From: an uncultured Prevotellaceae bacterium
Lineage (GTDB): Bacteria > Bacteroidota > Bacteroidia > Bacteroidales > Muribaculaceae
Length of the DNA: 46,936 nt
Assembly (NCBI GenBank): GCA_900322135.1
Contig: ONYP01000039.1
Location: 1-46,936 of the forward strand
Direction of reading: 5' to 3'
Under the pieces are notes generated by a model. It saw only the letters and a program-made list of their open reading frames with translations, was not told where the DNA came from and did no database searches. The number at the start of each line of letters is the position of its first letter. Positions within the stretch are counted from its first letter, which is position 1. Positions 14,330 through 42,896 of the stretch are shown in pieces. Made by a program: the position numbers and the translations under genes.

Positions 14330-14399
14330 AGGAGATGGTAGATGCTTTGAAATTGAAAATCAAGAGGAGATGGTAGATGCTTTGAAATTGAAAATCAAG
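14330..14399 (+). repeat. Perfect 35-bp tandem duplication covering the yceD start codon
   Basis: The 35 bases 14330-14364 are repeated exactly at 14365-14399. Each copy includes AGGAGATGGTAGATGC. Because 35 is not a multiple of three, the ATG in the first copy (14335) opens a 13-codon frame that stops at 14374-14376, overlapping the real start at 14370. Confidence 0.9.
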
Positions 14400-17261: not shown

Positions 17262-17310
17262 CAACTAGAAACTAAGGACTAAGAACTAGGGACTAGGGAC
17301 TAGAAACCAA
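17262..17310 (+). repeat. Degenerate ACTAGGGACTAG-type intergenic repeat
   Basis: The gap before der is a run of related 7-8-base units (ACTAGAA, ACTAAGG, ACTAGGG). ACTAGGGACTAGAAAC (17292-17307) recurs exactly at 30309-30324, and ACTAAGGACTAA (17271-17282) recurs on the minus strand at 28303-28314. Confidence 0.6.
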
Positions 17311-38320: not shown

Positions 38321-38340
38321 CAAATCTCCCCCTCCTCTAT

Positions 38341-38389
38341 AAACTCTAGAAAATCTAGAGCATCTAGAACATCTAGAACCTCTATAGTT
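38341..38389. repeat. Left TCTAGANNN 9-bp repeat array
   Basis: Five 9-base units begin at 38345: TCTAGAAAA, TCTAGAGCA, TCTAGAACA, TCTAGAACC, TCTATAGTT. The last unit contains the stop codon of the four-helix-bundle gene on the minus strand. The 37 bases 38341-38377 recur exactly at 39118-39154. Confidence 0.9.
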
Positions 38390-39065
38390 CACCTCCCAAT
38401 CGCTTGATTTTCTCTTTCAGTATCGCGTTTTCATTTTTGAGGGCTTCCACCTCTCGGATGAGTTCTTCAATGGTCTCGCGTTGGTTAGTGCGGTAGCCGA
38501 GCCGTGCCGCCGTCATGCGTTCGCGTATCCCGCCCTCGGTGATGAATTCCTTCTCTTTCTTCTGCTGATATGTCATCATCATTTTGTCCACCATGTGGCA
38601 CAAAGTGATGGCGACATTTGCCGCTTCCTCGTCGGTCCATTTCTCGAAAAATGGCTCATAATCTCCGAGATCATTGTGTTCACGGCAATAGGTAAGCATT
38701 TGGTCATAGCGAGGGTGCCCAGGTGTCCATTTTGTCAGACGATGAGCAGGAAGATAATCCCCATAGTCCTCTAAGAGTTCCTGGATACTCGAACGCGCCA
38801 CATTGAGCAACTTCAACTCCATTTCCATTGATGTCACCCCATCGGCTGAACCCTCGACGATATTCTGCTTGCCCGAGCGGGCCGCCTGCAGCATCTGGTC
38901 CACCGTGCGGTCTCCGTAAAGGGGCAGGAAACGCTTAGTAAAGACATAGGTCATCTGGTACAGCACAACCGTCTTTTGGTAGAACCACAGGTTCTTCCAG
39001 TTGGTCTGTTTTCGCAACACCGATTCCAGTTGCTGGGCAGGTTGCCTATTATCTTTTTTCTCCAT
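38382..39065 (-). CDS. Four-helix-bundle suffix-domain protein (S23/IVP-related)
   Basis: The start at 39065 gives MEKKDNRQPAQQLES; an upstream ATT is not needed. The 227-residue product has the four-helix bundle motif YQMTYVFTKRFLPLYGDRT, then QMLQAARSGKQNIVEGSADG, the typical signature of the 23S-rRNA-intervening-sequence protein family. A central insert (YDQMLTYCREHNDLGDYEPF) and a C-terminal coiled coil (IEELIREVEALKNENAILKE) complete it. The family also includes the retroelement accessory protein Avd, but no reverse transcriptase is near. The gene lies alone between two 9-bp repeat arrays, and its function is unknown. RNA or DNA binding is plausible. Confidence 0.9.
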   Translation of the reverse strand: MEKKDNRQPAQQLESVLRKQTNWKNLWFYQKTVVLYQMTYVFTKRFLPLYGDRTVDQMLQAARSGKQNIVEGSADGVTSMEMELKLLNVARSSIQELLEDYGDYLPAHRLTKWTPGHPRYDQMLTYCREHNDLGDYEPFFEKWTDEEAANVAITLCHMVDKMMMTYQQKKEKEFITEGGIRERMTAARLGYRTNQRETIEELIREVEALKNENAILKEKIKRLGGEL

Positions 39066-39117
39066 AGCTGTCAATTATCCCCGCAAATTTACTAAAAAAG
39101 CCACAACACCTCTAGAA

Positions 39118-39229
39118 AAACTCTAGAAAATCTAGAGCATCTAGAACATCTAGAGCATCTAGAGATTCTAGAACATCTAGAGCATCTAGAGATTCTAGAG
39201 CATCCAGTCCCTCCAGCCATTCCAGAAAA
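39118..39229. repeat. Right TCTAGANNN 9-bp repeat array
   Basis: Twelve consecutive 9-base units run from 39122 to 39229. The first nine are TCTAGA followed by AAA, GCA, ACA, GCA, GAT, ACA, GCA, GAT and GCA. The last three have degenerated to TCCAG. The array is in the same orientation as the left one and ends seven bases before the uvrA-like promoter. Confidence 0.92.
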
Positions 39230-42754: not shown

Positions 42755-42760
42755 AGAACA

Positions 42761-42836
42761 GTTAACAATGAACAGTTAACAGTTGGCATCAGTCCATCCG
42801 AAATCAACTTTTATCTATTATCTGTTCACTGTTAAC
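42761..42836. repeat. Inverted and direct repeats between ruvB and the flippase
   Basis: GTTAACAATGAACAG (42761-42775) is the reverse complement of CTGTTCACTGTTAAC (42822-42836) with one mismatch. AACAGTTAACA also occurs twice directly (42758-42768, 42771-42781). The rest of the gap is AT-rich TTAAC-type sequence. Confidence 0.7.
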
Positions 42837-42896
42837 GATTAACTCTTAACTAACTCTTATTTGTTAACTATTAATTATTAATTACTTACTGAAACT

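Follow-up and report, generated by a model that had tools for sequence, protein, structure and literature searches.

A four-helix gene between 9-bp tandem arrays in Bacteroidales: a possible RAYT/REPIN-like system of protein and repeat

INTRODUCTION

Four-helix proteins of the S23 type are widespread; a solved structure from among them, 2rld, still bears the title "protein with unknown function". Genes for intervening-sequence proteins of this family (S23/IVP) sit in 23S rRNA genes between inverted repeats, and an S23-like four-helix fold is also that of Avd, the accessory protein of diversity-generating retroelements. Systems in which a gene goes together with a repeat of its own have been described elsewhere. 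In RAYT/REPIN, as presented in PMC3116915, the gene is flanked by its own palindromic repeat, many gene-less copies of which are dispersed in extragenic DNA, and different genes of one genome go with different repeats, gene and repeat having diversified jointly. Short tandem arrays are known from bacteria as well. Intergenic tandem 7-mers of the word TAACTGA, often just before start codons, were found in Beggiatoaceae, Cyanobacteria and Bacteroidetes by authors who also noted other heptamer arrays in Bacteroidetes (PMC4679880); the main text of that article names no partner protein and does not contain the terms "S23", "helix bundle" or "intervening". BrickBuilt, a minisatellite/MITE of Porphyromonas gingivalis (Bacteroidales), is a dispersed tandem array with a 23-bp unit that is regarded as mobile (PMC4596501), and the same three terms do not occur in the main text of its description. 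In searches of the open-access literature, we found no report linking TIGR04258 or the S23 family to arrays. Here, we describe a TIGR04258 gene located between two 9-bp arrays and compare it with its relatives and with these systems.

RESULTS AND DISCUSSION

The locus and its protein

The gene was found in a window of 46,936 nucleotides, i.e., the whole stretch of DNA analyzed here. It lies on the minus strand at 38382..39065 (227 aa from the ATG; an alternative TTG start at 39074 would give 230 aa), and on each side of it there is an array of the 9-bp unit TCTAGANNN, both read on the plus strand. The left array (38336..38386), on the 3' side of the gene, consists of four perfect units, with TCTAGA at 38345, 38354, 38363 and 38372, and of a degenerate TCTATA at each end. 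The stop codon (38382-38384) is located inside this array, as the first-pass annotation of the locus had pointed out. The right array (39110..39229), on the 5' side of the gene and upstream of a UvrA-type gene, contains ten perfect units, nine with 9-bp spacing (39122-39194) and a tenth at 39111 with 11-bp spacing, and continues past ca. 39203 as degenerate TCCAG units to about 39229. The 5 and 12 units counted in the first pass are correct if the degenerate ones are included but drop to 4 and 10 for perfect units. Comparison of sequence and flanks confirmed the perfect 37-bp direct repeat reported there, with copies at 38341..38377 and 39118..39154 (both plus strand). This repeat is the longest string common to the two flanks of the locus, and the upstream flank has at most 16 bp in common with the downstream flanks of 66 other loci. 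With up to one mismatch allowed, TCTAGANCATCTAGA has nine matches in the window versus 0.01 expected from shuffles; this expectation and the comparisons with control genes given below rule out chance or low complexity as the origin of the arrays. Between the gene and the right array, the sequence reads TAAATTTG (39084..39091, minus strand), a putative promoter element resembling the -7 box of Bacteroidetes. Elsewhere in the window, Tandem Repeats Finder detected a perfect tandem duplication of a 35-bp unit (14330-14399).

Profile scans of the neighborhood identified an S9 peptidase, a UvrA-type ATPase and RuvB. The two adjacent genes are those of the peptidase and the UvrA-type ATPase; thus, there is no transposase beside the gene, in agreement with the first reading, and the gene is not within a 23S rRNA intervening sequence. 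Its assignment to an S23/IVP-related family also held as far as TIGR04258 and TIGR02436 are concerned. The protein scores 68 bits with TIGR04258 ("four helix bundle suffix"; curated cut-off, 40) and 30 bits with TIGR02436 (cut-off, 24), and 26.3 with PF05635, below the Pfam cut-off of 33.8. On the minus strand, the profile match to the TIGR04258 suffix domain covers 38490..38633 and the S23/IVP-like part (PF05635) 38775..38993. An AlphaFold2 model, obtained with good confidence (pLDDT 89.4, pTM 0.75), is all-helical, and its C-terminal helix (180-225) is long. Among S23-like solved structures, the best Foldseek matches were 2gsc, with a probability of 1.0 and a TM by target of.63-.79, and 2rld, with values of.94-1.0 and.60-.74, respectively; their E values were weak, none being below 0.001. 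On these matches, the protein is predicted to have an S23-like four-helix fold. Two stretches of the sequence are invariant or nearly so, the block RTxDQxxQAxRSxxQNIxE and the C-terminal motif GGxxExMxxxR. No Y1_Tnp domain was detected in the protein by Pfam or NCBIfam scans (E up to 1), no family in PHROGs or PADLOC matched it at E up to 0.01, and no catalytic partner of it was found. Phage cargo was discarded, as 92 candidate stretches in viral contigs included no relative.

Period-9 arrays accompany TIGR04258 genes

Of the 198 family genomes, 108 have a TIGR04258 match, as do 77 of the 101 genus genomes, and genes of this kind tend to be accompanied by arrays in a group of gut and rumen bacteria. 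Arrays were scored by a strict test (36-nt autocorrelation of ≥0.72 within 300-bp flanks) at 120 loci, which were mostly the top-ranked among the matches listed rather than a random sample. Seven genes of ≤140 aa, either short or cut off, were kept in this set and excluded from the tree described below (113 proteins). Period 9 was found in at least one flank at 80 of the 120 loci and in both flanks at 27, and 11 more had an array of period 10 or 11; a strict 9- to 11-bp array was missing at the remaining 29. By comparison, other genes of the same regions had period 9 in only 4 of 363 cases, the commonest period there being 7. As a further control, we inspected 20 genes encoding Y1 transposases in this genus, of which a single one was accompanied by an array of period 7 to 11 (7 bp). 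Tandem Repeats Finder, applied to 41 of the TIGR04258 loci, gave 8.06 period-9 arrays per 10 kb near the gene against 0.26 elsewhere, while the corresponding values for period 7 were 0.36 and 0.27; period 9, 18 or 27 was present at 35 of these loci. A second collection, in which the organisms are named and which was made up of the best 80 of at least 567 relatives, showed period 9 at 43 loci and period 8 or 10 at 13 more. At L210, L184, L246 and L249, the array has a period of 11 or 8, a shift seen in individual subclades of the protein that leaves the kind of word unchanged.

Since most of the genomes analyzed are metagenome assembled, short dispersed repeats might have led to chimeric joins that mimic genes inside arrays. 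Such an artifact seems highly improbable. Arrays flank the gene in the isolates Hoylesella timonensis (L266), Hoylesella loescheii (L283), Prevotellamassilia timonensis (L277) and Hallella multisaccharivorax (L301), as well as in a genome consisting of a single contig (G092, locus L027). Besides, the same filled site is present in three genomes, and the word follows the protein across genera.

Words, palindromes and the protein tree

The array period stays near 9 across TIGR04258 loci while the word itself differs (TCTAGA, CTATAG, GTCnGAC, CTTAA(A)G, including CTTAAG, CCTAGG, CTCnGAG, ACTAGT or TCCGGA). A perfectly palindromic 6- or 7-mer was contained in the consensus of 126 of 194 arrays, versus 56.8 expected from shuffled consensuses. 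Conservation is higher at word positions than in the spacers (.927 versus.736; word higher in 108 of the 126 arrays), although the best conserved frame was taken where several were palindromic, a choice that somewhat favors the word. We built a tree of the 113 four-helix proteins by a quick method and followed the word in 70 of them, belonging to six classes; the other 43 have no array or a word outside these classes. Word class changes only 9 times on the tree, compared to a mean of 44.8 (minimum, 39) in 1,000 shuffles, and to a mean of 43.5 (minimum, 32) when shuffled within genus groups. The period of the array, available for 101 rows, changes 6 times (shuffled, 11.6; minimum, 8). Of 17 genomes in which at least two loci bear an array, 16 have differing labels, the exception being G249, where both are of the TATAG class. 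These numbers of changes and the differing labels within genomes indicate that the word follows the protein and not the genome. We also considered a candidate specificity residue, the G in GGY, present in 13 of 17 proteins with GTCnGAC words and in 0 of 85 otherwise. It was rejected because supported branches provide a single independent pair, and all branches together provide two, so the correlation shows nothing yet.

Word and protein could be co-inherited passively as neighbors, which alone makes the word follow the gene tree. The arrays would then be microsatellites generated by replication slippage in intergenic DNA and carried along with a gene whose protein is not involved, and arrays of other words are indeed common in these genomes. 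We consider this improbable. Passive slippage does not account for a period near 9 at TIGR04258 genes, 7 at plain IVP genes (see below) and neither at other genes, nor for the scarcity of arrays at Y1 genes, the conservation of palindromic words above their spacers or the match between dispersed arrays and the word at the locus.

Dispersed arrays match the word at the locus

The genome to which the window belongs (3.09 Mb, 145 contigs, 82.6% complete) has one TIGR04258 gene that we could find and 67 occurrences of the TCTAGA dimer TCTAGANNNTCTAGA, with 0 for the reversed control. From the array sites listed, we took 12 stretches that are not at the gene and found in them 17 clusters of 15 to 60 bp. 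Thirteen of the 17 were intergenic by mechanical ORF calls, 12 had a start codon within 60 bp, and 10 had a stop codon within the same distance. Some dispersed clusters adjoin arrays of 7-bp words (e.g., L125).

To extend the comparison, dimers of four words were counted in the 101 genus genomes, with the dimers of the locus itself subtracted. Of the 77 that have a TIGR04258 match, 54 (74 de-duplicated loci) were divided by the word at the locus. All four words are more abundant where the locus bears them, with one-sided P values that ignore the relatedness of the genomes: GTCNGAC with period 10 has a median of 20 dimers with the word at the locus and 0 without (6 and 48 genomes; P = 2.6e-7), CTTAAAG 5 and 0 (5 and 49; P = 7.5e-5), TCTAGA 78 and 18 (9 and 45; P = 0.0055) and CTCNGAG 9 and 0 (8 and 46; P = 0.025). 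There are counter-examples. Three genomes (G207, G210 and G247) have 48 to 57 TCTAGA dimers each and no TIGR04258 match, and G227 has 102 CTCNGAG dimers, yet its one TIGR04258 locus bears another word. These mismatched genomes may reflect arrays that outlive the gene, a gene missing from an incomplete genome or a looser link. That arrays might turn out to be common and unlinked to the family, with no empty sites in relatives, had been named in the first-pass annotation as the outcome that would refute its reading. This outcome is realized by half: arrays are abundant and for the most part lie at a distance from the gene, but across genomes they are linked to the family, and there are array-only sites (see below). 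Its suggestion that the protein may recognize the repeat gains support from the way in which the word tracks both the protein tree and the dispersed arrays.

The location of the dispersed clusters also bears on a different explanation. The four-helix protein would be a regulator that binds DNA or RNA, with its own gene under the control of the flanking arrays, and the dispersed arrays would serve other genes as operators or leader elements, site differences being due to ordinary operator turnover. The proximity of 12 of 17 clusters to a start codon fits this (despite the 10 close to a stop codon), and so do the conservation of the word above the spacer and loci such as L199, in which the array sits between a promoter-like box and the gene. 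However, the overall arrangement is mixed: among 100 loci, the box precedes the array in 29, lies in the interval between array and gene in 22 and does neither in 49, and leader-RNA autoregulation as a general rule was discarded on these numbers. Regulation also leaves unexplained the 82 to 87% identical genes at other sites and the direct sharing of flanks described below, and in neighboring species the same site has another word or no word. All in all, we find a regulator with its operators unlikely, at perhaps one chance in a few.

Occupied and gene-less states of one site

The location between the peptidase and the UvrA-type gene could be followed in other genomes. We examined 30 UvrA-site loci, the best ones from 99 genomes that gave a match. 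Fourteen of them, which lack both the peptidase neighbor and the gene, were set aside, leaving 16 informative relatives. The gene with TCTAGA arrays is present in three (the window's own genome, G253 and G252). In four (G245, G180, G264 and G247), there is a single gene-less TCTAGA array, the kind of empty site for which a search in strains had been proposed at the outset, and in one more (G276) a decayed copy of it. Other arrays occupy the site in five (9-bp CTTAAAG type in three, 7-bp in two), and no array could be seen by eye in the last three. The right-hand arrays of the filled G252 and the empty G247 are nearly identical. We propose that the three states of this site, with gene and arrays, with an array alone or empty, derive from a gene that enters or leaves with duplication or loss of array sequence.

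Two of the nearest relatives of the window protein, in G253 (84% identical) and in G252 (88% for the portion that its contig contains), are at the window's own site, which indicates that much of the history of the family is vertical. Other close relatives are located at different sites. An 87% identical copy (L197) is found upstream of RuvB, beside an IS3 transposase, a position that in the window has neither a four-helix gene nor a TCTAGA array, and two 82% identical copies (L199 and L230) are at other sites. In a scanned type I restriction-modification locus, a TCTAGA-type four-helix gene lies between hsdM and hsdS (L231:4001-4678), and L233:4001-4675 appears similar, by look alone, with one extra ORF in between. 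In several genus genomes, other four-helix genes were also seen just past the 3' end of the same UvrA-type gene as in the window (G256:C5, G264:C1, G259:C27, G271:C3, G254:C11, G223:C13 and G193:C1), so both ends of this gene may be hot spots.

The two flanks of a locus tend to share sequence in direct orientation. The longest exact strings common to both flanks had a median of 14 for direct and 9 for inverted matches, and of 8 between loci, and at 30 of 67 loci the direct string was longer than every between-locus value. At L172, a 35-bp direct repeat extends 19 bp into non-array sequence. Beyond L172, the shared strings fall within arrays as far as they were inspected; target-site duplication was for this reason rejected, and duplication and gene conversion look alike in them. 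The notion of a cassette advanced in the first pass is, thus, borne out in part, by the filled and gene-less array states of one site, the 82 to 87% identical relatives elsewhere and the direct flank sharing.

Movement of this kind might depend on another enzyme, such as a Y1 transposase or a reverse transcriptase, that mobilizes arrays and gene in trans, with the four-helix protein as an accessory. Y1_Tnp was detected in 19 of 20 genus genomes searched, and the S23 fold is common to Avd. However, Y1 is present in array-poor genomes too and, hence, does not explain the words, and the single array (7 bp) beside the 20 Y1 genes gives no support to the idea that the arrays are Y1-transposase repeats. 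A reverse-transcriptase partner was rejected, as PF00078 was found in 8 of the 20 genomes and missing from 12, including the window's own (82.6% complete); it was missing as well from the array-rich G193, G246 and G205. We regard mobilization by such an enzyme, with the four-helix protein as its accessory, as quite improbable.

Plain S23/IVP genes and their arrays

Arrays are not restricted to proteins with the TIGR04258 suffix. Plain PF05635 loci have flanks of period 7 or 14 in 24 of 31 cases (both sides in 15), compared with 20 of 325 other genes. Where period 7 is found on both sides (10 loci), the arrays are inverted in nine and direct in one. A few plain S23/IVP loci have 8-bp or 22/23-bp units; two plain IVP genes, L093 and L098, lie between 22- and 23-bp arrays reminiscent of the 23-bp BrickBuilt. 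The window itself contains 7-bp tandem arrays of ACTAGGG (17271-17303), AACAGTT (42757-42784) and AACTATT (42806-42881), and the last word is the consensus of the array beside a plain IVP gene (L002) of the same genome.

A broader reading would include these genes. Four-helix proteins of the S23/IVP superfamily would be an unrecognized class of readers of nucleic-acid words, each lineage with its own palindromic 6- to 7-mer at a spacing of about one turn and plain members with 7-mers in inverted arrays, and gene plus arrays would constitute a transposase-free selfish element of Bacteroidales intergenic DNA. We put this forward tentatively, as a possibility with appreciably less than an even chance. 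If true, the proteins and words paired in this study would represent a first step toward a recognition code.

A model for gene and arrays

The explanation that we prefer, giving it about an even chance, is that the gene and its arrays form a co-evolving, mobile protein-and-repeat system, with the four-helix protein as the reader of its word, that resembles RAYT/REPIN but has no known transposase. For each TIGR04258 lineage, there would be one word to recognize, short and in most cases palindromic, with head-to-tail copies at intervals of 8 to 11 bp, about one helical turn, and the palindromes suggest that the protein probably binds as a symmetric oligomer. Arrays would be the putative binding sites at which the gene lands and from which it leaves. 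The gene would move with or into arrays by recombination, array sequence being duplicated on both sides, and its loss would leave one fused array, gene-less arrays of the same word being scattered in the genome by what may be selfish spread. Host recombination or an enzyme in trans might be the agent of the movement.

If the RAYT/REPIN-like reading is true, this would be a mobile protein-repeat system built on a fold that is not known as that of a transposase, and protein and word would have undergone joint diversification on many occasions. It offers a concrete, testable partner for S23-type proteins, a short word that can be read from the flanks of each gene, and a possible cause for many of the short tandem arrays in the intergenic DNA of Bacteroidales.

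Comparison with known systems

With the S23/IVP family (PF05635 and TIGR02436; 2gsc and 2rld), the window gene has in common the sequence family as judged by TIGR02436, the predicted fold and, since plain members are also flanked by short arrays, this kind of neighborhood. It differs from them by the TIGR04258 suffix, the long C-terminal helix and the period-9 arrays, and, unlike intervening-sequence genes, it lies between two protein genes. Unlike Avd systems, no match to the reverse transcriptase PF00078 was found in its own genome (82.6% complete). The unit TCTAGANNN, of 9 bp, differs from the 7-bp unit of the TAACTGA arrays and from the 23-bp unit of BrickBuilt as these are given in their articles, and the 7-bp arrays found here accompany plain IVP genes; on what the two descriptions contain, both kinds of array may be related to the four-helix system. 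The closest resemblance is with RAYT/REPIN as described in PMC3116915: a TIGR04258 gene is likewise flanked by a palindromic repeat with dispersed gene-less copies, different genes of one genome go with different repeats, and gene and repeat have diversified jointly. However, RAYTs are HUH tyrosine transposases and the four-helix protein has no such domain, REPINs are inverted doublets whereas here 6- to 7-bp words are in tandem with a period of 8 to 11, and the four-helix gene is itself found in and out of one site. By eye, inverted composites were seen at some loci (L004, L007 and L018). If any gene with its cognate repeats is counted as one kind, the four-helix system would belong with RAYT/REPIN as a variant. 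With the HUH transposase as the defining feature of RAYT/REPIN, the one known system that it works like, gene and arrays would represent a new kind of system.
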